Part shown: positions 11,606 through 24,020 of the stretch, piece after piece
Position numbering within the stretch: the first letter of the stretch is position 1
Layout of the letters: every line of letters starts with the position of its first letter
Assembly: GCF_019977235.1 (NCBI RefSeq)
Contig: NZ_AP024646.1
Span: forward strand, 1,116,001 to 1,180,000
Reading direction: 5' to 3'
Source of the DNA: Arthrobacter sp. StoSoilB5
Lineage (GTDB): Bacteria; Actinomycetota; Actinomycetes; Actinomycetales; Micrococcaceae
Length of the DNA: 64,000 nt
Position numbers and translations under genes: made by a program
The notes under the pieces: generated by a model
What the model was told of the DNA's origin: nothing
Database searches by the model: none
What the model saw: the letters and a program-made list of their open reading frames with translations, nothing else

Positions 11606-12427
11606 TCAACGCCCCGGCCAGACTGGGGGGCGCTTTTCCTGGAAAGCACGCACTCCCTCTGCGGAGTCTTCACTGTCCAGCGCCCCCATAAGAGCCGGAA
11701 GTCGCAGGCCGCGGGCTTCCCTGGCCGTCAGGTGGGAGGTCTGCGTCACCATCTGCTTCACCGCGCGGACTGAGGTGGGGGCGCAGGCAACGATCTGGTC
11801 CACCCAGCGCTGCACAGCGGCGTCGAGCTCTTCGGCAGGAACAACTTCGTTGACCAGCCCCATGGACTGCATCTCGGCAGCGTCTGCCTTGCGGCCTGTC
11901 AGGAGCATCCCCATGGCCTGCGTATAGGGGATCCGCCGCACCAACTGGTGGATGCCGCCGTCGAGCGCCAATCGCCCAACGCGAGGTTCCGTCAAGCCGA
12001 ACTTTGCGGTGTCGGCGGCCACCACAATGTCGGCACCCAGCACCATTTCCATCCCGCCGCCCAAGGCGTAGCCGTTGACCCGGGCTATCACGGGGATGTC
12101 CAAACTGGTGCGCAGGCTCAGGCCACCGAAGCCGTTGGGGTCCAGGCCGGCCCAATATTCCAATCCGGTCTTGTCCACGGCGGACGCCGACATGTCAGCA
12201 CCAACGCAGAAGGCACGGGACCCGGCACCGGTGATGACAACCGCACGTACGGACGGATCCTGCTCAAGCTGGGCCCAGATCTCGTTTAGCCGTGCATGGG
12301 TGGTGCCATCCACGGCGTTGAGGACGTGTTGACGATCGATGACCACAGTTGCCACGTGGTTCTCGATGGTCAGCGTCACAACATCCACCGGCGCCTCCAC
12401 CGAGGCTTGGACAGCTGTGGCCGTCAC
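11606..12427 (-). CDS. enoyl-CoA hydratase/isomerase family protein (carnitinyl-CoA dehydratase-like)
   Basis: A 273-residue crotonase. Oxyanion-hole segments are GSRAFCVGADMSAS and VNGYALGGGMEMVLGADIV; TAKFGLTEPRVGRLALDGG contains the usual Glu region. The C-terminal EKRPPVWPGR is the family's FxExRxPxWxGR tail. Its ATG overlaps the CoA-transferase stop by 4 bases, so the CoA ester made by that enzyme is probably the substrate hydrated or dehydrated here. A CaiB-type transferase next to a CaiD-type crotonase resembles carnitine metabolism, but the rest of the operon does not. Confidence 0.9.
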   Translation of the reverse strand: MTATAVQASVEAPVDVVTLTIENHVATVVIDRQHVLNAVDGTTHARLNEIWAQLEQDPSVRAVVITGAGSRAFCVGADMSASAVDKTGLEYWAGLDPNGFGGLSLRTSLDIPVIARVNGYALGGGMEMVLGADIVVAADTAKFGLTEPRVGRLALDGGIHQLVRRIPYTQAMGMLLTGRKADAAEMQSMGLVNEVVPAEELDAAVQRWVDQIVACAPTSVRAVKQMVTQTSHLTAREARGLRLPALMGALDSEDSAEGVRAFQEKRPPVWPGR

Positions 12428-13692
12428 CGCAAGACCCCCAGCTGCTGCAGGCGCTCGATCGTCTCGTGGTCGAAGCCGTTCTCCAGCAGGACCTCCACAT
12501 TGTGCTCCCCGAGGCGCGGTGCGGCGCGGCGGATGGTGGGCGGAGTGGCGGAGAGCCGGATGGGAGCGTTCAGCATACGGACAGTGCCGACGCCGGGGTG
12601 CTCTGCTTCCACGATCATCCCGTTGGCCTCTGTTTGCGCGTCCGCCAAGGCCTGTTCGAGGGTGTGCACGGGGGCATTCAGCAGCCCCTGCTCCTCAAGC
12701 TGCTGTGTCCAATACTCAGTGGTATTGGTGGCGATGCGCTCGCGGAAGATGGCCTGCAGTCCGGGCTTGTTCTTGAATTGCTGCTCAAGGTTGGAGAATT
12801 CGGGCCGCCGGGTGAGGTCCTCGTCCAAGCCAAGGGCTTCAGAAATCCTGGCCAGGGGATCGGGCGTGAAACCACCCACCATGCATACGGCGCCGTCGGT
12901 GGTTTCGAAGACACCGCTCAGCGGCATGGCGCCCCAGTTGACCTCGTAGCCGCGGTTGAGCTGCATGCACGCTTCCTGCATCTGCAGGTGCAGCATGGAG
13001 TCGTACATAGTCACTTCCACCTTCTGGCCCACTCCTGACGCTTCGCGCGTGCGCAGTGCCAGAAGGATGCCCTGCATGAGGTGCATGCCGGTGATGTAGT
13101 CGCACAGGGTGGTGGGGTAGATGGAGGGCTTGGCGTCATCGGATTCGCGGCGCCACATCACTCCCGAATACGCTTGCGCGATCGCGTCCTGGCCACCTTT
13201 ATGGGCGTAGGGCCCCTCGGGGCCGAAACCCGTGCCCGAGGCCCAGATGATTCCCGGGTTCGCAGCTTTCAGGTCCTCGTAGCCGAAGCCCATCCGTTCC
13301 ATGACTCCGGAGCGGAAGTTGCTGACCACTACGTCTGCATCAGCTATGAGCCGGTGCAGCACCTCACGCCCTTCGTCGGTGCGGGTGTCCACGGAGACGC
13401 TGCGCTTGTTCCGGTTGATGGACAGGAAGATCGGGTTGTCCTGGCCATCTTGATCCGGGAAGGAATTGCGCGAAATATCGCCTGCGCCAGGACGTTCCAC
13501 CTTGATGATGTCTGCCCCATAATCGCCCAGCAGTTGGGTGCAGGACGGACCCATGAACACCTGGGTGAAGTCCACGATTTTGATGCCGTCAAGCGGCAGC
13601 GGGGTAACTGCCGCAGCAGCTGAGGCGCCGGCGGCAGCGGCGGCAGGGGCCGTCGTCGTGCTTTCAGTCTGGTCGAGGAGAACGGTGCTCAT
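12424..13692 (-). CDS. class III CoA-transferase (CaiB/BaiF family)
   Basis: A 422-residue CoA-transferase, normal for the family. Typical stretches are GIKIVDFTQVFMGPSCTQLLGDYGADIIKVE at the start of the fold, the catalytic Asp in KGGQDAIAQAYSG and the late QQLGVL end. These enzymes move CoA between carboxylates by an aspartyl-CoA thioester. The N-terminus has an Ala-rich, probably disordered lead of about 30 residues. The gene overlaps both neighbours by 4 bases (FAD oxidoreductase upstream, crotonase downstream), which ties the three steps together. Confidence 0.93.
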   Translation of the reverse strand: MSTVLLDQTESTTTAPAAAAAGASAAAAVTPLPLDGIKIVDFTQVFMGPSCTQLLGDYGADIIKVERPGAGDISRNSFPDQDGQDNPIFLSINRNKRSVSVDTRTDEGREVLHRLIADADVVVSNFRSGVMERMGFGYEDLKAANPGIIWASGTGFGPEGPYAHKGGQDAIAQAYSGVMWRRESDDAKPSIYPTTLCDYITGMHLMQGILLALRTREASGVGQKVEVTMYDSMLHLQMQEACMQLNRGYEVNWGAMPLSGVFETTDGAVCMVGGFTPDPLARISEALGLDEDLTRRPEFSNLEQQFKNKPGLQAIFRERIATNTTEYWTQQLEEQGLLNAPVHTLEQALADAQTEANGMIVEAEHPGVGTVRMLNAPIRLSATPPTIRRAAPRLGEHNVEVLLENGFDHETIERLQQLGVLR

Positions 13693-15053
13693 GCCGGCAC
13701 CGCCTCGTTGGAGTCCACGGTAGCGTTCGACGACGGGACGTCGCCTGGGTCAGCACCATGCCGGCGCATGCCCTGCTGGATATCCAGCGCGGAGACGTCG
13801 CGGACCAACACGTTGTTCTCCACGGCGAGGGCGGCCGCAACGCCGACGGCCTGTCCCATTGCCATGCAGGGCGGGATTTCGCGCGACATTTTCTGTGCCT
13901 CGGGGGTGGCGGAGTAGTGGCGGCCGGCGACCAGGAGCTGGTCCACTTCCTTGGGGAGCAGCGAGCGGTACGGGTAGTAGTAGTCACGGCCGCGGGCAAC
14001 GGTGTCCGCGAAGTGGCGCCGCTGGGTGACGTCGTCCTTGGTCATGACGTACTCGCCTTGCAGGAGCCGGGTCTGGCGGACTCCCATCTGGGAGGCTACG
14101 TCCAGCATGTAGCAGTTTTCGAAGCCAGGCAGGTTGGCGCGGACGTATTCTACGGCCTCGGAGATGCGGTCACGGGCGGCGAACTCAGCAGCAGTCATGT
14201 CCGCCGGGTCAACGCCGTCGAATCCGCTCATGTGCGGGGCGTTGCACCAGACCACGCCGTCGATGGGTGTCTTGAGCCACCAGAGTTCCCAGGCGCCGCC
14301 GAGGAGGCGCTTGATCTTGCGGTTGATGGCGCGCGCTTCCTTCGGGTTGGCTTGTTCGAAGGCTTCGGCTGCCTTGGTGTTCACATTGCCCAATCGGAAA
14401 ACGAGCGTGGTGAGGTAGTTGTCCTTGGCGTAGCTGGCGCCGGCGCGGGAGGCGACGTCGATGTCGCCGGTGGTGTCGATCACGACGTCGGCCATGAACG
14501 CCTGCGGGCCGAGTTTCGTTTCGCAGATGACGCCCTTGATCACGCCGTTGTCCACAATGGGACGGGAGAACCAGGAGTGCAGGCGGAGGTCCACGCCGGC
14601 CTCTCGGACGAGGTCGTTGGAGACGCGCTTCCAACCGTCGGGATCGAAAGCCGCGGCGTAGCAGATGGGCTTGGGGTTGGTGTGCGAGTGGAAATCGAAG
14701 GTGCCGTAGCGGCCCCACTTGTTCCAGAGTTCCTCGGAAGTCTTGCGGTCATCGGCGGGCGGGACGATTGCCAGGCCAAGCTTTTGCAAGCGCTCCACGT
14801 ACTCGGAGACGATGCCGGTGACGGTGATTTCCTGGCCATTGATCATGTCATCGAGAACCAGGACCATACCGCCGGAAGCGAGTCCGCCCAAGGATGAGTA
14901 GCGTTCCAGGAGCGTGACTTTGGCTCCTGAGCGGGCGGCGGTAACCGCTGCGGCGACGCCTGCGGGACCACCTCCGACTACCAGGACGTCGGATCGTGAG
15001 ATGACGGGGGCGGTGAGGTCCGCCGTCGTAGTGCTGAGTTCAAGGGTGTTCAT
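13689..15053 (-). CDS. FAD-dependent oxidoreductase (PF12831-type)
   Basis: A 454-residue flavoprotein. The FAD Rossmann motif is VLVVGGGPAGVAAAVTAARSG, continuing with LLERYSSLGGLASGGM; a second family stretch is VVIDTTGDIDVASRAGA, and PPCMAMGQAVGVAAALA closes the fold. Members of this group are dehydrogenases or fumarate-reductase-like enzymes acting on diverse carboxylic or polyhydroxy compounds; none can be assigned. AAGGAAC precedes the ATG. It is the first catabolic enzyme after the transporter, so it may catalyse the first step on the imported compound. Confidence 0.88.
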   Translation of the reverse strand: MNTLELSTTTADLTAPVISRSDVLVVGGGPAGVAAAVTAARSGAKVTLLERYSSLGGLASGGMVLVLDDMINGQEITVTGIVSEYVERLQKLGLAIVPPADDRKTSEELWNKWGRYGTFDFHSHTNPKPICYAAAFDPDGWKRVSNDLVREAGVDLRLHSWFSRPIVDNGVIKGVICETKLGPQAFMADVVIDTTGDIDVASRAGASYAKDNYLTTLVFRLGNVNTKAAEAFEQANPKEARAINRKIKRLLGGAWELWWLKTPIDGVVWCNAPHMSGFDGVDPADMTAAEFAARDRISEAVEYVRANLPGFENCYMLDVASQMGVRQTRLLQGEYVMTKDDVTQRRHFADTVARGRDYYYPYRSLLPKEVDQLLVAGRHYSATPEAQKMSREIPPCMAMGQAVGVAAALAVENNVLVRDVSALDIQQGMRRHGADPGDVPSSNATVDSNEAVPA

Positions 15054-15063
15054 GGGAGGTTCC

Positions 15064-16395
15064 TTACTTTCCGACGAAGATGCCGTTGGAGCGGCGTGCG
15101 GCGAGGTAGAAAACGATGCTGAGGATGGAGAGGACGGCCACGTAGACCGGGAAGATCCAGGTGAGGTTCAGGGACTGGAACCAGACCAAAAGGTAGGAGG
15201 CGGTGCCACCGAAGAGTGCCACGCCGATGCCATAGCCCAAGGCGACGCCGGTGCCGCGGATGTTCTTGGGCATCAGGGATGAGCTGACCACGTTGTAAAG
15301 GGTCATGTTCAGGACCAGGACGATTGAGCCGCCCAGGAGGACTGCGGCGAATCCGCCAATTCCGGGCTGAACGTACATCAGCATGAGGAACACGGACGGG
15401 ATGGCGAGGATGCGGGTCACCAGGAACCACTTGGACATCGCCTTGCCGTCGGCCAACTTGCCGATGATCCAGCTGCCAACCACCAGGATGGCGCCCAGGA
15501 TGGTGGTGAGGGCAAACACCGCGGTGGGGTCTTCCTTGAAACCGCTGCGGGCTGCGCTGGGAAGGCCAACGTTCCAGGCGTAGTTGTAGGCCTGTGCTGC
15601 ACCCACCACGAAGATGATGGCAAGGACGGAGAGCCAGTGCCTACGGACTCCGGACCACACGGCACGCGGCGTGTTCGTGGCCATTTCCTCGGCCTTGAGG
15701 GTTTCCGGCAGGGAACGGCGCAGGTAGAGCACCACGAAACCGAAGGCTGCGCCGATGATGAACGGTACGCGCCAGCCCCAATCGGCCATGGCTGCGCCGC
15801 CGAGGACAAGGCTGCAAAGGAAGCTCACCAGCGAGGCCAGCAGGATGCCGATGTTCACGTAGAAGGACATGATGCCGGCGACGTAGCCTTCGCGGCCTTC
15901 CGGGGCAAGCTCCACAGCGTGGGAGGTGGAGAGCGGGGCTTCGATTCCTGTGGAGATACCTTGCAGGACGCGGCACACCAGCAGGATGACGCCGGCCCAG
16001 GCGCCGATGGTGGCGTAGTTGGGTGTGATGGCAATGATCAGCGTGGTGCCGGCCATGAGCATGATGGACAAGAGCATGACCCGACGCCGGCCGATCCGGT
16101 CTGCGAGCGTCCCCAGCAGTATGCCGCCCAAGGGGCGGAAGGCGAACCCGACGGCGAACACGGCCAGCGCGTTCAGGGTGGCGGAGAGTGGCTCTGTGTT
16201 GGGGAAGAAGTTCGGTCCGATGAAGGCTGACAGGAGGCCGAAGACCATCCAGTCGTACCATTCAAGGGCGTTGCCGAGGCCAAGGCCCAACAGTCCTTTG
16301 CGGACCTGGGGAGTGAACTTTGGGTTCTTTGTGGGGGAGGAGTGGCTGGTGCTTGGTGACGGGACGGCGTTGTCCGTCGTTTGGGTGTTGAGCAT
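15064..16395 (-). CDS. MFS transporter, metabolite:H+ symporter (MHS) family
   Basis: A 443-residue major facilitator with about 12 membrane helices. GNALEWYDWMVFG in the first helix and LADRIGRRRVMLL between helices 2 and 3 are signatures of the MHS group, which takes up organic acids and betaines with protons. I chose the ATG at 16395 because CGTAAGGACAC lies before it; the frame extends upstream without a ribosome site. The gene opens the structural operon and ends 10 bases before the FAD oxidoreductase, so the operon's substrate is probably an organic acid. Confidence 0.92.
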   Translation of the reverse strand: MLNTQTTDNAVPSPSTSHSSPTKNPKFTPQVRKGLLGLGLGNALEWYDWMVFGLLSAFIGPNFFPNTEPLSATLNALAVFAVGFAFRPLGGILLGTLADRIGRRRVMLLSIMLMAGTTLIIAITPNYATIGAWAGVILLVCRVLQGISTGIEAPLSTSHAVELAPEGREGYVAGIMSFYVNIGILLASLVSFLCSLVLGGAAMADWGWRVPFIIGAAFGFVVLYLRRSLPETLKAEEMATNTPRAVWSGVRRHWLSVLAIIFVVGAAQAYNYAWNVGLPSAARSGFKEDPTAVFALTTILGAILVVGSWIIGKLADGKAMSKWFLVTRILAIPSVFLMLMYVQPGIGGFAAVLLGGSIVLVLNMTLYNVVSSSLMPKNIRGTGVALGYGIGVALFGGTASYLLVWFQSLNLTWIFPVYVAVLSILSIVFYLAARRSNGIFVGK

Positions 16396-16558
16396 GGAAG
16401 TGTCCTTACGCTGACGCCACGGAGGGCGTGGGAGGGTATGACGCAGGAACGCCTGTTGGAGGAGGCGTGTTGTGCGAAAGTGGCAAGGATTGTCTGCGGC
16501 CACGGTTCGTGTCCGGACAGTTAAGGGAAAACGCTGGCGCCGTTGAGGGGCAGCAGTG

Positions 16559-17158
16559 TTACCACGCGTGTGGTGCGTTGACCCAGATGGCTACGCATAC
16601 CTCTTCGTAGCTGTTCTTGTACCAGTGGGGGATTTCTGAGGAGTAGGTGATCGAGTCGCCCTCTTCCAGGCTGTAGCAGACGCCGTCGAGATAGACGTCC
16701 TTACGGCCGGAAATGATGTAGCAGAACTCTTCACCGCTGTGGGTAAAAGGGGTTGCGCTGGTGTCGTGCCCTGGGGGCGTGCTGATCCACTGCGCTTCGA
16801 TGCTTCCGTCGCGGTTGGGAGTCAGCAGTTCGTGTACGGCTTCGCCCACGGATTCACGGGTGACGTTCTTCAGGTTGCGTCGTTCGGATCTGCGGACCAC
16901 GGGTGAGGTGGATTGGTCCTGGCCAATGAAGAATCTCCCTACGGGGATATCCAGGCCGTGGGCCAATTGGGCGAGGGTGGTAAAGGAAGGGTTGGCCATT
17001 CCGCGTTCGATTTGGCTGACGATCGCCTGGCTGAGGCCCGTGATGTCCGAGAGTTGGGCGAGGGTCATGCCCTTTGCCTTGCGCATGGTGCGCACCTTGT
17101 TCCCCACAGTTGCCAGCAGTTCGCTGGTGGCTGGCGGTGCAGGAGTCTCGGTAGTCAT
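16559..17158 (-). CDS. XRE family regulator with C-terminal cupin domain
   Basis: A 199-residue regulator. Residues about 15-75 are a helix-turn-helix of the XRE type (MTLAQLSDITGLSQAIVSQIERG) and residues about 115-195 a cupin (SGEEFCYIISGRKDVYLDG, SITYSSEIPHWYKN). XRE-cupin proteins sense a small ligand in the cupin barrel. The gene precedes the transporter operon in the same orientation, 163 bases upstream, and is the likely local controller. AAGGAT lies before the ATG. Two similar inverted repeats upstream may be its own binding sites. Confidence 0.93.
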   Translation of the reverse strand: MTTETPAPPATSELLATVGNKVRTMRKAKGMTLAQLSDITGLSQAIVSQIERGMANPSFTTLAQLAHGLDIPVGRFFIGQDQSTSPVVRRSERRNLKNVTRESVGEAVHELLTPNRDGSIEAQWISTPPGHDTSATPFTHSGEEFCYIISGRKDVYLDGVCYSLEEGDSITYSSEIPHWYKNSYEEVCVAIWVNAPHAW

Positions 17159-17809: not shown

Positions 17810-17998
17810 GTGGGCACAGAAACGGGAATCAGCATGAACGGTGGTGTTCGGCCCTCGGTGGGTCTCATGGTCATCATCGTGTTTTGCCTGACGGTGCTGC
17901 TTGGTATTGGCGGATCGTCAGCATATGCGTTGTGGGAGCAGGGCTCCCGTACCGCCACTGATCAGTCGGCGGAATCTTCGGGATTCAAGGCGCCATAG
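17810..17998 (+). CDS. small single-pass membrane protein
   Basis: A 62-residue protein with one strong hydrophobic helix (VGLMVIIVFCLTVLLGIGG), short N-terminal and longer polar C-terminal ends. The start is a GTG with a G-rich stretch upstream; an ATG 8 codons later is an alternative. Its last 37 bases overlap the end of the convergent vsr gene. I do not recognise a family, and the gene call rests on the membrane helix and open frame only. Confidence 0.45.
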   Translation: MGTETGISMNGGVRPSVGLMVIIVFCLTVLLGIGGSSAYALWEQGSRTATDQSAESSGFKAP

Positions 17999-18435
17999 GG
18001 CGTTCCGCCCTCCAAAAACACTGTCAGCCGTTCTTCGAGGACTGAGCTGTTCCGCAGCTCGCACTCCCACACGGTCAGCACGTCCCAACCATCGGCGCGC
18101 AGTTGTTCCCTCTGGGCCAGATCGCGTTCACGGGTCCGGGTGCGCTTGGCCTCCCAGAACTCCGCATTGGCAGCGGGAGAGTGCAGTCCTACCTTGCAGT
18201 CATGGAAGTGCCAGAAGCAGCCGTTGACGAAAATGACCTTATGGCGGCTGGAGAACACCAAATCAGGGCGACCCGGCAGCTTGGTCCCGCCAGCCTGCCC
18301 GTGCAGCCGATAACGGTAGCCCTTGGCATGCAGGAGTTTGCGCACCAGTAACTCGGGCTTGGTGTTCTTGCCCCGGATCCTGGACATGTTTCGGCTGCGC
18401 TGCTCCGGCGTCAGCAAGTCCCGGCTCTCGCCCAT
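17962..18435 (-). CDS. vsr: very short patch repair endonuclease (Vsr)
   Basis: A 157-residue Vsr endonuclease, normal length. Family motifs are RSRNMSRIRGKNTKPELLVRKLLH, the catalytic Asp in LPGRPDLVF, the zinc and active-site segment NGCFWHFHDCK and the last zinc Cys in VWECEL. Vsr nicks beside T:G mismatches left by deamination of 5-methylcytosine. It normally sits beside a cytosine methyltransferase, but none is visible here, so this copy is an orphan in the window. It lies 10 bases downstream of the P450 stop on the same strand and may be transcribed separately or by read-through. Confidence 0.93.
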   Translation of the reverse strand: MGESRDLLTPEQRSRNMSRIRGKNTKPELLVRKLLHAKGYRYRLHGQAGGTKLPGRPDLVFSSRHKVIFVNGCFWHFHDCKVGLHSPAANAEFWEAKRTRTRERDLAQREQLRADGWDVLTVWECELRNSSVLEERLTVFLEGGTPYGALNPEDSAD

Positions 18436-18445
18436 AAAGTCCAGC

Positions 18446-19576
18446 CTACCCAGGCATCACTGTCACTGTCCGGGGAGCCTGGAACGATAGCAAACGGAGC
18501 CATTCGGGGTTTGGGTCGCGGAGTCGGGCGCCCTTGAGGGCCGCAGTAGTTTCCTGAACCACGACGGCGGCCTCCAGTTCGGCGAGTTTCGCACCAAGGC
18601 AGCGGTGGATTCCTGAGCCAAAGGCCAGGCCGTAGGGCGTGGGTCCTTGGTGTTCGGCGCTTTCCCCGGCTGCCCACGGAAAGCCGTGGTTCCCCGTCAA
18701 CTCCACCAGGATTTCTTCCCCGGCAAGCACTGGCTCGCCGTTGAGCTCCGTATCGCGGGTGGCCACCCTGCGCCATGTAGGCACGGAAGACTCAGTGGCC
18801 AGCACATGCCGGACAATGTCCCGGGACTTGGCACTGGAGGATGCCTCGTCCCAGGTGATTCCCCGGGAGCCTTCGGCCAGCCGGAAGAGCGTGGTGCTGA
18901 TGAGCTGCGTGGTGGTCTCCTGGCCTGCGATGAGCAGGAAGTAGCCCAGTGAACAGATCTCCGGCGTGCTGAGGCCGTGGTCTGCGAGTGCCCTGAAGAG
19001 GTTGGATGTACCCTCGAGTGCAGGCGCGGCCACGGCTTCCAGGACCAGCTCGCGCAGCCAGGTGTAGAAGTCCGCCGCCGTGTGGGCCAGTTCCAGCTGA
19101 CGTTCAGGATCCGGCCAGCCCCAGAAAAGCTCAAGCGAGTCCAGGCTCCATGCCTTCAACTGGGGAAGGTCCCGGACGGGTAGGCCCAGCATTTCGAGCA
19201 TGACGACTGCCGGGGGATAGGCGGCCACTGCCTGCACCAAATCAACGTTTCCTGCAGAGTCCAGGAGCCGGGCTGCGGCGGCGGCTGACTCCCGGGAGAG
19301 CTGCCGGATGCGCGGTTCCATGGCAGCAACTTTGGCGGGAGTGAAGAAGCCCGCCACCACTTTGCGGATAGCGGCGTGTGATGGGGAGTGGTTGCTGGCC
19401 AGGACCGGTGGAAGGGCGAACCGTGCCTTCTGCAGGATGCGGAGGGCCTGGCCGCTCAGCGGTGTCACGGCCAGCAGCGCGTTGGCTGGGCTGAAGTCGC
19501 CAGGGCGGTGAAGGACCTCGCGGACGGTGTCCGGATCGCGTAACACCTTGTACGGGCATGTGGTCACGGTGCTCAT
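18446..19576 (-). CDS. cytochrome P450 of the biotin operon, ExxR motif absent
   Basis: A 376-residue soluble P450. The I-helix oxygen-activation motif is LLIAGQETTTQLIS and the haem ligand loop is AFGSGIHRCLGAKLAELEA, both intact. The K-helix reads IVRHVLATESSVPTWRR, so the near-invariant ExxR is replaced by HVLA. A few P450 families (for example CYP157 of Streptomyces) also lack it. The ATG overlaps the bioD stop by 4 bases, making it the last gene of the biotin operon. By analogy with Bacillus BioI it may generate the pimeloyl precursor; substrate and activity are unproven. The frame opens further upstream, but the start in MSTVTTCPYKVL fits the overlap. Confidence 0.9.
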   Translation of the reverse strand: MSTVTTCPYKVLRDPDTVREVLHRPGDFSPANALLAVTPLSGQALRILQKARFALPPVLASNHSPSHAAIRKVVAGFFTPAKVAAMEPRIRQLSRESAAAAARLLDSAGNVDLVQAVAAYPPAVVMLEMLGLPVRDLPQLKAWSLDSLELFWGWPDPERQLELAHTAADFYTWLRELVLEAVAAPALEGTSNLFRALADHGLSTPEICSLGYFLLIAGQETTTQLISTTLFRLAEGSRGITWDEASSSAKSRDIVRHVLATESSVPTWRRVATRDTELNGEPVLAGEEILVELTGNHGFPWAAGESAEHQGPTPYGLAFGSGIHRCLGAKLAELEAAVVVQETTAALKGARLRDPNPEWLRLLSFQAPRTVTVMPG

Positions 19577-20256
19577 GCCGGCACCCCCACAAGCCACGAG
19601 GCCGCCTGTTCGCGAAACACCTCGGGGGCCAACCCTGCGGCTTCGTGCCGGATGGCACCCAGCAGCGGCACCGGCCAGTCCGAGATGGTGGCGCGGTTGC
19701 TGCGCTCCACAGCCCCGGGGACGGCGGGCCAACTCCCAAGCACCACTCCCACTACCGGCAAGCCCCGTCGGTCCAGGGCCTCCAGCGTCAGCGCCGTGTG
19801 GTTCAAGGTGCCCAGCGATGGCCGCGCCACCACGGCGAACCCAGCCGAATCGCCCAGGAGTGTGCCCAGGTCAGCCAGCGTCCCGCCGTCGTGGTCCAAC
19901 TCAACCAGCACCCCGCCTGCACCTTCCACGAGAACATGGTCATGGGTGTTGGCCAGTGCGCGGATTCGCTCGGCATGCGAAGCAAGCTGCGGCAGCACCA
20001 CTTCGTCACAGGCAGCAGCGGGGACGGGAGCCAACGGCTGTTCCAGGACGACGCCGGCCTCGGCCGTGAGTGGGCCGGCAAGCCGCACCACTTCCGCGCA
20101 GTCCGAATCGCCGTCGACGTTGCCGCTTTGGCAGGGCTTGTAGACGGCCACCGAGCAGCCGCGTTGCGTGAGCGCTGCGGCGAGTGCCGCCGTCGTGATG
20201 GTCTTCCCGACGCCGGTATCAGTACCGGTCACCAGGATGATGCGTGGAAGTTTCAT
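19573..20256 (-). CDS. bioD: dethiobiotin synthetase
   Basis: A 227-residue ATP-dependent dethiobiotin synthase. The P-loop is ILVTGTDTGVGKTITTAAL, followed by KPCQSGNVDGDSDC and the VEGAGGVLVEL segment, all diagnostic. It closes the ureido ring of DAPA with CO2 and ATP. The gene overlaps bioF upstream and the P450 downstream by 4 bases each. Confidence 0.97.
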   Translation of the reverse strand: MKLPRIILVTGTDTGVGKTITTAALAAALTQRGCSVAVYKPCQSGNVDGDSDCAEVVRLAGPLTAEAGVVLEQPLAPVPAAACDEVVLPQLASHAERIRALANTHDHVLVEGAGGVLVELDHDGGTLADLGTLLGDSAGFAVVARPSLGTLNHTALTLEALDRRGLPVVGVVLGSWPAVPGAVERSNRATISDWPVPLLGAIRHEAAGLAPEVFREQAASWLVGVPA

Positions 20257-21449
20257 GAGGTTCGCTCCAGGATGTCGCGCAGCACTGCGCAGGCGTGGTC
20301 GAGGTCATTGGGGGTGAGGTTTGCCCGGGCCGTCAGGCGCAGGCGGGAGATGCCGTCGGGCACTGAAGGTGGACGGAAACACCCCACCTGGACGCCGGCA
20401 GCCAAGGCGGCTTGGCTCGCAGCCAAGGCCGCTTCCGCCGAGGCCATGGGGATGGATTGCACTGCTCCGGCAGAGCGCTCGACGGCGGCTGGGCGTTCCA
20501 GCGCGGGTGGCAGTTGGGCGGCGAGGGCGGCTGCGTTGTGGTGGACAGCCGCGGCGCGCCAAGGTTCCTGCCGGATGATTCCGACGGCGGCCATCGCAGC
20601 AGCCGCGGCGGGCGGGGCCAACGCGGTGTCGAAAATGAAGCTTCGCGAACGGTTCACGAGGTGCTCGCGCAGCAGCTTGGAACCGAGCACCGCACCGCCC
20701 TGACTGCCCAATGCTTTGGACAAGGTGGCCGTGCGGACGACGCCGGGATGGTCCGCCAGGCTGGTGCCCGCCACAGCGCCGCGCCCTTGAAAGGCGCCAA
20801 GGCCGGCAACACCCAGGCTGTGGGCCTCGTCGATCAGCAGCACGGCATCGTTTTCTTCGGCCAGGCTGAACAACTCCGCCAAGGGAGCAGCGTCCCCGCC
20901 CACGCTGTAGATGGACTCCACCACCACCAAGGCCCGTGGTTGTGTCCGCCCATACAGGAGCCGTGCCGCGTCCGCTGCATCATTGTGCTTGAATTCCCGC
21001 ACTTCAGAGCGGCTCAGCCTAAAACCATCGATCAACGAGGCATGGCAGTACTCGTCCGCCACAATCAGTGTTCCGGGACCACCCAGGGCCGTGGTGACAC
21101 CCAGATTAGCCAGGTAGCCGGAGGAGAACACCAACGCAGCCTCTGCTCCGGTCAGCGCAGCCAGCTGGTCCTCCAACTCGAGATGCAGTTCCGTGGTGCC
21201 TGTCACCAGCCGGGACGATGCAGCTCCAGTGCCCCACCGCCTGATCGCGTCAGTGGCGGCTTCCGCCAGGCGCGGGTCCGTGGACAGGCCAAGGTAGTCG
21301 TTGCTGGCGAGGTCGATCATCCGGCGCTGTCCGCCGCTGTCACTGCCGTGGGCGCCCTGCGGGCCACGCACTGACGGCTTCCTAACCAGCCCCCGGCGCT
21401 CGCGGACCCCGGCCTGTTGTTCCAGCCAGGCGGTCATGGAGACGCTCAT
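20253..21449 (-). CDS. bioF: 8-amino-7-oxononanoate synthase
   Basis: A 398-residue PLP enzyme of the alpha-oxoamine synthase family. Visible are IDLASNDYLGLSTDPRL, the His-containing DEYCHASLIDGFRLS, the DEAHSLGVAG motif and the PLP Lys in VRTATLSKALGSQGG. It condenses pimeloyl thioester with L-alanine. The start is the ATG of [12 protein letters not shown], which overlaps the bioA stop (ATGA); a longer open frame upstream lies inside bioA. Confidence 0.97.
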   Translation of the reverse strand: MSVSMTAWLEQQAGVRERRGLVRKPSVRGPQGAHGSDSGGQRRMIDLASNDYLGLSTDPRLAEAATDAIRRWGTGAASSRLVTGTTELHLELEDQLAALTGAEAALVFSSGYLANLGVTTALGGPGTLIVADEYCHASLIDGFRLSRSEVREFKHNDAADAARLLYGRTQPRALVVVESIYSVGGDAAPLAELFSLAEENDAVLLIDEAHSLGVAGLGAFQGRGAVAGTSLADHPGVVRTATLSKALGSQGGAVLGSKLLREHLVNRSRSFIFDTALAPPAAAAAMAAVGIIRQEPWRAAAVHHNAAALAAQLPPALERPAAVERSAGAVQSIPMASAEAALAASQAALAAGVQVGCFRPPSVPDGISRLRLTARANLTPNDLDHACAVLRDILERTS

Positions 21450-22774
21450 GCTCTGGCCTCCAGCCTGTCTGCGGCGGCGGAAACTGCAGCCACCATGCCC
21501 GCGGTGATGGTCCTGATCTGGGAGGCTGAGCTGATGTACGGCGGCATCGTATAGACAAGGTTGCGGAACGGGCGGACCCACACGCCGTGCTCCACGGCAG
21601 CCCGGGTCACTGCGGCGACGTCCACCGCGTCCGCCAACTCAATGACGCCCACGGCGCCGATAGTCCGGACGTCCCTCACGCCGTCGAGCACCAACGCCGG
21701 GGCCAGTCCCTCCCCGAGTCCTGCGCCCAGGCGCTCAACGTCCGCACGCCAATCTCCGTCCCGCAGCAGCCCCAGGCTCGCATTGGCAACGGCGCAGGCG
21801 AGCGGATTTCCCATGAAGGTGGGGCCATGAAGGAGCGCACCGGCAGCACCGCCGGAGACCACCCGGGCAACCTCACCCGTGCACAAAGTTGCCGCCAGCG
21901 TCATGTACCCACCCGTGAGGGCCTTGCCCACACACAGGATGTCCGGGACGGTGCCGGAATGAGTCGCCGCGAACAACGCGCCCGTTCGGCCAAAGCCCGT
22001 GGCGATCTCGTCCAGAATGAGCAGCAGCCCATACTCATCAGCCACCTCACGGAGGATCCGCACACACTCGGCGGGGTAGATGAACATGCCTCCGGCCCCC
22101 TGCAGGACAGGCTCCACGATGATCGCCGCCAGCTCATTGGAATGCTCGCGGGCCAGCGCCTCCACTGACGTCCGCCAGTCACTGATGCTTGTTGGCGTGG
22201 CCGTCGCCGCGGCTGGAGGACGCGGCGCGAACACATTGCCCGCCAACAGGCCAGGGAAGGCTGAGTGCATTCCGTCAACGGGATCACAAACGCCCATCGC
22301 CGCGAAGGTGTCGCCGTGATACCCGCCGCGGACAGTCAGGAAACGTTGCCGCTGCGGGCGCCCCGACGCCGTCTGGAACTGCACAGCCAGCTTCAGGGCC
22401 ACCTCCACCGAGATGGAACCCGAATCTGCCAGGAACACGCGCTCCAGCTGTCGGCCGGACTCCCCTGGTGCCATAGCCAGCAGGTTCTCAGCAAGATCCA
22501 CAGCGGGCTGATGCGTCAATCCGCCGAACATCACATGGCTGAAGGAGCCCAGCTGGCGCTGAACCGAAGCATCCAGCACAGGATGGCGGTATCCATGGAT
22601 CACCGACCACCACGACGACATCGCATCCAGCACCTCATGAATGCGGCCGTCCTCGTCCCGCAAGCGCAGCGCCACGCCGTCGGCCGCCTCAACTTCCCAA
22701 AGCGGGAGTGTCCCGGAAGCCGGAGCGTAAGGATGCCACAGGCTCGCCCGGTCCCGTTCGATCAGGGAACTCAT
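21446..22774 (-). CDS. bioA: adenosylmethionine-8-amino-7-oxononanoate aminotransferase
   Basis: A 442-residue class III aminotransferase. SLWHPYAPA at the N-terminus, [29 protein letters not shown], the cofactor Asp in [14 protein letters not shown] and the PLP Lys in [13 protein letters not shown] are all diagnostic of BioA. It converts KAPA to DAPA with SAM as amino donor. ATG 22774 overlaps the bsaP stop by 4 bases. Confidence 0.97.
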
Positions 22775-22998
22775 CGGGACACCAGTCCGTGGCGCGAGCA
22801 CTCGGCCGACCATCCCAACGGCGTCACCTGTACCTTCATGCGGCGGCGGCACTGCGCGCAATAGCGGGGCGGCTCCATCGCCAACCGTTGCTGGCAGCCC
22901 TGGTGAGCGTCCGACGTCGGGCGCTCGCCTTGGGTGCCGGCAAGCGCGCCCCCGCAGTGCCCGCAGTATTCCGCCGTCGTGGCGCCTACAGCGGTCAT
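22771..22998 (-). CDS. bsaP: biotin synthase auxiliary protein
   Basis: A 75-residue Cys-rich protein with YCGHCGGAL near the N-terminus and [21 protein letters not shown] followed by CSRHG. This layout matches BsaP, the small protein mycobacteria need for biotin synthase to make biotin; the Cys residues are thought to hold an iron-sulfur centre serving BioB. Its position directly after bioB, with a 4-base overlap, and before bioA supports the call. The gene would be easily missed because of its size. Confidence 0.9.
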
Positions 22999-24020
22999 AG
23001 CGACTTCTGGAGTTCCTTGATGGGCATGTTGAGCTCCACCAGGAGGTTGAGGTCGGCGGTGGCGGGTCGGCCCAGGGTGGTGAGGTAGTTGCCGACGATC
23101 ACGGCGTTGATGCCACCGAGCAGGCCTTCGCGGGTGCCGAGATCGCCGAGGGTCAGTTCGCGGCCGCCAGCGTAACGGAGCACCGTGCGCGGCATGGCCA
23201 AGCGGAACGCGGCGATGGCACGGAGGGCGTCTTTGCCGTCCATGATTCCCTGGTTTTCCAGCGGCGTGCCGGGGCGGGGGTTGAGGAAGTTCAGCGGGAC
23301 CTCGTGCGGTTCCAGCGCCGCGAGCTGCGCGGCGAGTTCAGCACGCTGCTCCACGGTTTCGCCCATGCCGATCAGGGCACCGCAGCACAATTCCATGCCG
23401 GCGGCCTTGACCATGTTGCACGTGTCCAGCCGTTCCTCGTAGCTATGCGTGGTCACTACTTCGGGGAAGTAGCTGCGGGCGGTTTCGAGGTTGTGGTTGT
23501 AGCGGTGGACGCCCCATTCGGCCAGCTGGTCAACCTGGCGCTGCGTGAGCATGCCGAGGGAACACGCGATATTGATCTCAACTTCCTCGTTGATACGGTC
23601 GATCGCGAACTTGATCTGGTTCATGAGCTTGATGTCGGGGCCACGGACAGCTGCGACGATGCAGAACTCGGTGGCACCGGTGGCGGCCGTTTCCTTGGCG
23701 GCCTTCACGAGTTCCGGGATGTCCAGCCACACGCCGCGGACCGGGGAATCGAACAGGCCTGATTGGCTGCAGAAATGGCAATCTTCGGGGCAGCCACCGG
23801 TCTTGATGGAGATGATGCCCTCCACTTCGACGTCCTCGCCGCAGTGCTTGAGGCGGACCTCGTGGGCGAGCTGGAGGGCAGCGGGGATGGCCTCGTCCGG
23901 AAGTTGGAGGATCTCCACAAGCTGGGCTTCATTGAGGCCTTCACCTCGCTCAAGGACCTGCTCGCGTGCGGTGTCCAGGATGGCGTAGCCAGTGGCTTCT
24001 TGGGTTGCTTGGGTCGTCAT
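22995..24020 (-). CDS. bioB: biotin synthase
   Basis: A 341-residue radical SAM enzyme. The SAM cluster motif is [14 protein letters not shown] (C-x3-C-x2-C), followed by [14 protein letters not shown] and the [14 protein letters not shown] segment, as in BioB. It inserts sulfur into dethiobiotin. The start [16 protein letters not shown] is at ATG 24020; the frame extends 21 codons upstream but the extension is not BioB-like. It is the first gene of the operon and overlaps bsaP by 4 bases. Confidence 0.97.

Follow-up and report, generated by a model that had tools for sequence, protein, structure and literature searches.

A conserved biotin-operon P450 of Micrococcaceae that has lost the ExxR motif together with the meander

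The biotin operon and its terminal P450 gene

The window, a stretch of 64,000 nucleotides from Arthrobacter sp. StoSoilB5, carries a biotin operon on the reverse strand in the order bioB-bsaP-bioA-bioF-bioD-P450 (Table 1). The P450 gene is the sixth and last, and all five junctions are four-base ATGA overlaps. The initial annotation had the P450 translationally coupled to bioD and this was borne out, its coordinates, strand and frame being correct and the start ATG (19576-19574) overlapping the bioD stop. The 75-residue gene following bioB, which we take to be bsaP-like, was named from its position. The function of bsaP is taken from PMC11099021.

Scored against PF00067, the window P450 reached 34 bits, which exceeds the cut-off of 22.8 though the score is low. 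A Pfam search of the whole genome found one other P450 and missed that of the window; because the search overlooked this gene, Pfam-based P450 counts were discarded.

Directly 3' of the P450 lies a vsr mismatch endonuclease gene (17962-18435, reverse strand, above the TIGR00632 cut-off). The nearest kin of the window have it in the same place, but most other Micrococcaceae loci read do not. Further downstream of the operon, positions 11606-17158 look, from sequence alone, like a catabolic cluster with enoyl-CoA hydratase-like, CoA-transferase-like, FAD-oxidoreductase-like, MFS-like and XRE-cupin-like genes.

Table 1. Genes of the biotin operon and features of the P450 (positions in the window)
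Feature	Position	Strand	Remarks
bioB, biotin synthase	22995..24020	-	TIGR00433 above cut-off; start taken as ATG at 24020, ORF extends to 24083
bsaP-like small gene	22771..22998	-	75 aa; ORF; homologues 3' of bioB in relatives
bioA	21446..22774	-	TIGR00508 above cut-off; start set by ATGA overlap
bioF	20253..21449	-	best model TIGR00858, 370 bits, below cut-off of 426; operon position
bioD, dethiobiotin synthase	19573..20256	-	TIGR00347 above cut-off; ATGA overlap
P450, last gene of the operon	18446..19576	-	376 aa; ATG overlaps bioD stop; PF00067 match
SLELFWGWP, residues 147-155	19112..19138	-	highly conserved in this family of P450s
I-helix AGQETT, oxygen-activation motif, residues 217-222	18911..18928	-	intact
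K-helix ExxR position	18797..18808	-	reads His257-Val-Leu-Ala260
Stretch replacing the meander, residues 295-317	18626..18694	-	alignment and AF2 model
Heme loop FGSGIHRCLG, Cys326 ligand	18593..18622	-	intact

Motifs and predicted fold of the P450

The initial annotation had described a P450 with intact I-helix and heme loop in which the K-helix ExxR reads HVLA. Alignment to CreJ (5gwe), the closest solved P450, confirmed this reading: the EVLR of CreJ aligns to HVLA, and the ExxR signature of the P450 superfamily is absent from the window protein. WRR is present in the same alignment. The I-helix motif AGQETT is kept in 395 of the 409 family rows; FGSGIHRCLG conforms to the FxxGxHxCxG pattern of the heme-ligand loop, and the Cys ligand is kept in 408 of the 409 rows, the remaining row being ambiguous. 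His67 and Arg71, presumably the heme contacts of the C-helix, are likewise conserved in the family alignment. Sequencing error was ruled out as the origin of HVLA, which also occurs in a 91%-identical genome (G369, locus L003); its presence in the complete genome NZ_AP024630.1 (L032) disposes of an error or a one-off in the same way.

The precedent named in the initial annotation holds, as CYP157 of Streptomyces is a P450 family described without ExxR in PMC3990721. Since such P450s have been published (PMC3990721), HVLA does not exclude the window protein from the superfamily. The CYP157 motif, quoted there (PMC3990721) as EVLW or EQILW, keeps the Glu, whereas HVLA lacks both Glu and Arg and the meander is changed as well; the window protein is therefore not of the CYP157 type (Glu kept, Arg replaced by Trp), a family known here by description only.

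The change in the meander is a feature beyond those noted at first. This segment normally resembles ANRDE.RF..GE.FD..R, as in CreJ, and it is lost in the window P450. The fold is that of a P450, as P450 chains fill the fold-search matches listed, and the AF2 model has a mean pLDDT of 87.4 and a pTM of 0.88. Only residues 1-5 and 302-311 have a pLDDT below 50, the latter being the filler in place of the meander. The part of the protein preceding NAL has 27 residues in the window compared to 65 in L149 and 54-79 in intact full-length database rows (42 in one), locus rows being unsuitable for this comparison because they end at the match edge. The shortening is not universal, as five rows with a changed meander (P0124, P0130, P0139, P0184 and P0185) have 43-104 residues in this part.

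Conservation of the P450 with the biotin genes of Micrococcaceae

Orthologues were surveyed in 395 Micrococcaceae genomes. The orthologue group extended down to an E value of 2.2e-64 and 40% identity, below which there was a drop to paralogues near 33% identity. An orthologue of the P450 was present in 95 of the 395 genomes, representing 16 of 32 genera, and BioF, at E <= 1e-60, in 113, with a single match each. Both proteins were found in 93 genomes, the P450 only in 2, BioF only in 20 and neither in 280; a Fisher p-value for this pattern was set aside, since it takes no account of relatedness among the genomes. As for the two genomes with the P450 only, the gene lies at a contig edge in one (G105) and locus L058 of the other (G118) holds a 40%-identical BioF.

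We read 79 Micrococcaceae-type loci, drawn from 67 of the 95 P450-positive genomes together with 12 named loci, some of them repeats. In 78 of them bioF, bioD or both were encoded on the strand of the P450 and no more than 400 bases from it; the exception is, in our view, L042, whose assembly is frame-shifted and which likewise has bioD ahead of the P450. Two gene orders predominated, one with bioD upstream of the P450 (28 loci) and one with bioF upstream and bioD downstream (49 loci). The association with biotin genes that the initial annotation had proposed to look for in related Micrococcaceae was thus found, 93 of the 95 P450-positive genomes having bioF, and the P450 belongs to the biotin operon as a conserved gene, a trait of the BioI type. 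The dN/dS of the P450 was 0.085 relative to L032 and 0.115 relative to L033. Both values lie inside the range for the remaining bio genes (0.038-0.153) and indicate purifying selection.

In the 20 loci with BioF only, bioD adjoined bioF in 19. Neither the bio gene order of all 20 nor the ORFs listed in 6 revealed a recognisable replacement for the P450. One of these loci, L103 (G348), matches BioF only weakly and is perhaps no biotin locus. In G144 (L093), which has no P450, the bioF match contains two internal stop codons, as if the pathway decays after loss of the P450.

The front of the operon varies within the family. In the kin of the window, bioB is 88-97% identical to that of the window in the loci that reach it and is followed by bsaP, the frame-shifted L042 apart. 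The bioB of other Micrococcaceae genera is unlike it, at 31-38% identity, and bsaP has no match there, which suggests a swap of the bioB module.

Loss of ExxR accompanies a changed meander

The K-helix was compared in an alignment of 297 rows (80 loci and 217 proteins, with near kin over-represented and L042 left out). Both Glu and Arg of ExxR were kept in only four of the 295 Micrococcaceae-type rows (L052, L058, L071 and L076); L081 and L082, which are paralogues outside the 295, both keep the motif. The initial annotation had allowed that HVLA would lose its meaning if most orthologues carried ExxR. The motif is absent from 291 of the 295 rows and the claim survives. The commonest K-helix forms, counted in 203 rows, were HVLA (101), HILA (24), HVLT (16) and RVLA (12). 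Glu without Arg occurred in 17 of the 409 family rows.

A wider view of the clade was obtained with L149, which belongs to a different family in the order, as the query; 724 proteins were scored, and the best 120 of them were listed. Full-length relatives of about 420 residues came from Longimycelium, Allokutzneria, Solihabitans and metagenome bins, and these have a canonical meander and keep ExxR. Many of the listed proteins were from Kribbella; they have about 350 residues and a deleted meander, and their K-helix reads EVLR, DVLR, QVLR or a more decayed form. Among the 117 rows new from this search 69 keep ExxR, so that loss of the motif is limited to part of the clade. The motif loss first noted in a single protein therefore extends to nearly all Micrococcaceae-type rows, but ExxR is often kept in the wider clade, and there its absence is associated with a changed meander.

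The extent of the meander change can be judged from the distance between WRR and the end of the heme loop. This distance is 64 residues in every intact-meander row and in the outgroup P450s, 46 in the Kribbella-type rows and 46 to 69 in the Micrococcaceae-type rows, the longer ones containing unconserved filler. To follow both traits, a tree was made from 75 rows (69 of the family and 6 outgroup P450s) with both trait regions removed; meander states were taken from the table for these 75 rows, as a regular expression for the intact meander applied to the 409 rows missed clear cases. The 69 family rows stood apart from the six outgroup P450s with a support of 100/99. All 22 rows with an intact meander keep ExxR, compared to 10 of the 47 with a changed meander, so all changes in ExxR sit where the meander is changed. 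The fewest changes on the tree were two for the meander and nine for ExxR. The changed-meander part makes up 57% of the tree length, which gives a rough chance figure of 0.006, this being no formal test. An independent-pairs test of meander against ExxR loss offered only one pair on supported branches and had no power, since the meander was deleted in only one or two events. A single event was not rejected (p-AU 0.179), and the choice between one and two depends on the long-branch row L149; L060 and the outgroup row L183 are also long branches, and the program warns that two long branches meet in the outgroup.

Taken from the aligned sequences, this pattern suggests that the meander was probably deleted first and that the ExxR clamp drifted away afterwards. 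As the changes in ExxR and in the meander are associated, the K-helix accounts for only half of what is odd about this protein. The Glu and Arg of the K-helix are held to stabilise the meander (PMC3990721). That assertion becomes testable here, as a single family has members with both features, members with ExxR and a deleted meander, and members with neither.

Clade members outside Micrococcaceae and mkp-like clusters

At the level of the order, 39 of 396 genomes had a match at E <= 1e-30 and, at the level of the class, 17 of 394 at E <= 1e-50; many of these matches are other P450s. The P450 lies in or near biotin genes at L149, L150, L173, L174, L178, L179, L180, L188 and L210, being some 2-4 kb from bioD-bioF and on the opposite strand in L179 and L180. 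L151-L153 and L181-L186 hold other P450s, without bio genes. In L210 the order is bioA-bioD-bioB-P450, and bioF is on the opposite strand, preceded by an ACP and a ketosynthase. Within the genus g144, inferred to be Streptomyces, 20 of 150 genomes matched at E <= 1e-40 and 14 loci were read, L210 being one of them. No bio genes were found within about 8 kb at 11 of these 14 (L211, L213 and L215-L223), nor at L175-L177 of this genus, which makes 14 members in all; those examined have NAQ in place of NAL and an HRCPG loop.

Two further loci have a different setting. By Pfam, L214 has MFS, ACP, ketosynthase, a BioF-type aminotransferase fold and an AMP ligase, with the P450 beyond these on the other strand; in L212 the ketosynthase was identified by Pfam, while similarity pointed to BioF, ACP and bioA. 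The mkp cluster is described in PMC13336041 as containing an ACP (mkpB), a ketosynthase (mkpC), a BioF-like gene (mkpD), a FabH-like gene (mkpF) and a P450 (mkpG). By their gene content L212 and L214 match mkp-like clusters, which we so designate on that basis; the FabH-like mkpF was not seen in L214. In that work a knock-out of mkpG abolished alpha-methyl-KAPA, and MkpG was placed one step ahead of the BioF-like enzyme (PMC13336041).

The P450s of L212 and L214, which serve here as proxies for MkpG, share with the window P450 a 77-row clade with an SH-aLRT support of 100 relative to six outgroup P450s, in a quick tree that contains these proxies and not BioI. The L214 P450 is 38% identical to that of the window. 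Both proxies have ExxR and the meander intact, unlike the window protein. MkpG differs further in belonging to secondary metabolism with its own ACP and ketosynthase (PMC13336041); an ACP and a ketosynthase are neighbours in L210, L212 and L214, and there are none in the window operon.

Relation to BioI and other solved P450s

P450s of one family are by convention about 40% or more identical, and CYP116B enzymes are fused and self-sufficient. BioI (CYP107H1) of Bacillus subtilis (3ejb/3ejd/3eje) shares only about 20-22% identity with the window P450, which is not an orthologue of the BioI/CYP107H type. CreJ and CYP116B are nearer to it than BioI by profile and by fold, and with the L214 P450 as query they also lead, BioI being absent among the 60 matches listed. 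CreJ (5gwe/5xjn) has ExxR and the meander intact and, by the title of its structure entry, binds an alkylphenyl phosphate. The greater nearness of CreJ and CYP116B makes recruitment independent of BioI likely, though short of proof. BioI itself is called unique to B. subtilis in PMC12915131; PMC11089781 describes it as confined to a few microbes, which do not use it for biotin. In the titles and abstract openings of the open-licence papers listed, no biotin-operon P450 of Micrococcaceae or Kribbella is named, and PMC9666465 gave nothing usable on the biotin need of Arthrobacter. As judged from its sequence and that of its relatives, the window protein is a real, conserved and unusual biotin-operon P450 that has lost ExxR together with the meander.

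Proposed role in the supply of pimeloyl-ACP

Other routes to pimelate were searched for in 72 genomes, namely 52 of the 95 P450-positive and all 20 BioF-only Micrococcaceae. BioW was found in none of the 72, the control being positive in B. subtilis and M. jannaschii. No BioC exceeded the cut-off in the 72 genomes; this cut-off is strict, with only 1 of 14 control genomes reaching it, and may overlook a divergent BioC. Methyltransferases scoring below it were present in all 72. The genome of the window has four KAS III-type hits over the cut-off, and no KAS III was recognised within the bio operons read, whose flanks were annotated in part.

We consider it likely, by analogy with BioI of Bacillus, that the protein is a compact P450 with catalytic activity, which provides BioF with pimeloyl-ACP by cleaving an acyl-ACP. 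This reading draws on the conserved place in the operon, the co-occurrence with BioF, the purifying selection, the intact heme and oxygen-activation motifs and the clade shared with P450s of mkp-like clusters. BioI is reported to make pimeloyl-ACP by oxidative cleavage of acyl-ACP (PMC11089781 and PMC12915131). Following this analogy, the window P450 would act on an ACP-bound acyl chain, with successive oxidations at C7/C8 and then scission of the C-C bond, and the resulting pimeloyl-ACP would pass to BioF; the compact enzyme would function without the lock formed by ExxR and the meander. Catalytic activity, ACP-bound substrate, product and redox partners are all predicted features. Of the BioI-like role put forward in the initial annotation, the place in a conserved operon stands, with BioW in 0 of 72 genomes and no BioC over the cut-off (0 of 72); the protein is no BioI orthologue and the role in making pimelate is an inferred one. 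It differs from BioI in having lost ExxR and the meander and in occurring where none of the 72 genomes has BioW. The initial annotation had also proposed rescue of a knock-out by pimelate, which is not to be expected in a genome without BioW.

An alternative that we regard as unlikely is that the P450 acts in the biotin pathway without making pimelate, by oxidising KAPA or dethiobiotin or by making a biotin-related antimetabolite. To our knowledge, none of the known biotin steps after BioF needs a P450, which counts against this reading. Members of the family do occur in mkp-like clusters and some have no bio genes nearby, as such a role might lead one to expect, but the 113 BioF-positive genomes have one BioF match each (E <= 1e-60), as in a plain bio set, and mkpG was assigned upstream of the BioF-like enzyme (PMC13336041).

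It is also rather improbable that pimeloyl-ACP is made by a BioZ-like KAS III route from glutaryl-CoA and malonyl-ACP or by a divergent BioC, with the P450 redundant. The four KAS III-type hits, the methyltransferases below the BioC cut-off in 72 of 72 genomes and the 20 BioF-positive genomes without the P450 would all fit such a route, and BioI is redundant in B. subtilis (PMC12915131 and PMC11089781), which means that a biotin-operon P450 need not be essential. Against this, the P450 is under purifying selection and travels with the operon on a plasmid (see below), and the operons read held no recognised KAS III. In 20 of the 113 BioF-positive genomes the P450 is lacking and neither BioW nor a BioC above the cut-off was found; these would need another source of the precursor or would scavenge. 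That the protein is a degenerate, non-catalytic scaffold like the P450-derived glycosyltransferase activators, for which the lost ExxR and meander and a weak TIGR04515 match might speak, is very improbable, as this match (37.6 bits) is far under the cut-off of 343 and the Cys ligand, the I-helix motif, His67 and Arg71 are conserved.

If the P450 does cleave acyl-ACP, it would be the pimelate source of many Micrococcaceae, Kribbella and other Actinobacteria without recognised BioC or BioW; where such Actinobacteria obtain the seven-carbon part of biotin is the question that this family addresses. We lean, by a little, towards the broader view that a second lineage of pimelate-making P450s was recruited independently in Actinobacteria. 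In Micrococcaceae this lineage would be the sole dedicated source of pimeloyl-ACP and would be catalytic without the ExxR/meander lock, which would mean that ExxR serves to hold the meander and that heme-thiolate catalysis itself does not require it.

Plasmid-borne copies

The operon is also found on a conjugative plasmid of Arthrobacter sp. FW306-05-C (L189, NZ_CP084557.1), where bioB-bsaP-bioA-bioF-bioD-P450 lies between two IS110 transposase genes. One hypothetical gene precedes bioB, and bsaP was identified there by homology. This mobile biotin cassette includes the P450 and no other recognised pimelate gene.

Two other plasmids carry related genes. In Arthrobacter sp. StoSoilB13 (hit H1, NZ_AP024648.1) an 89%-identical P450 is encoded on a 1.35-Mb plasmid. 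The conjugative plasmid pYJN5-2 of Paenarthrobacter sp. YJN-5 (L187, NZ_CP053546.1) has a lone P450 paralogue, 72% identical and with HVLA, which is flanked by M20 hydrolase/dihydropyrimidinase and GAF-protein genes and stands without biotin genes.
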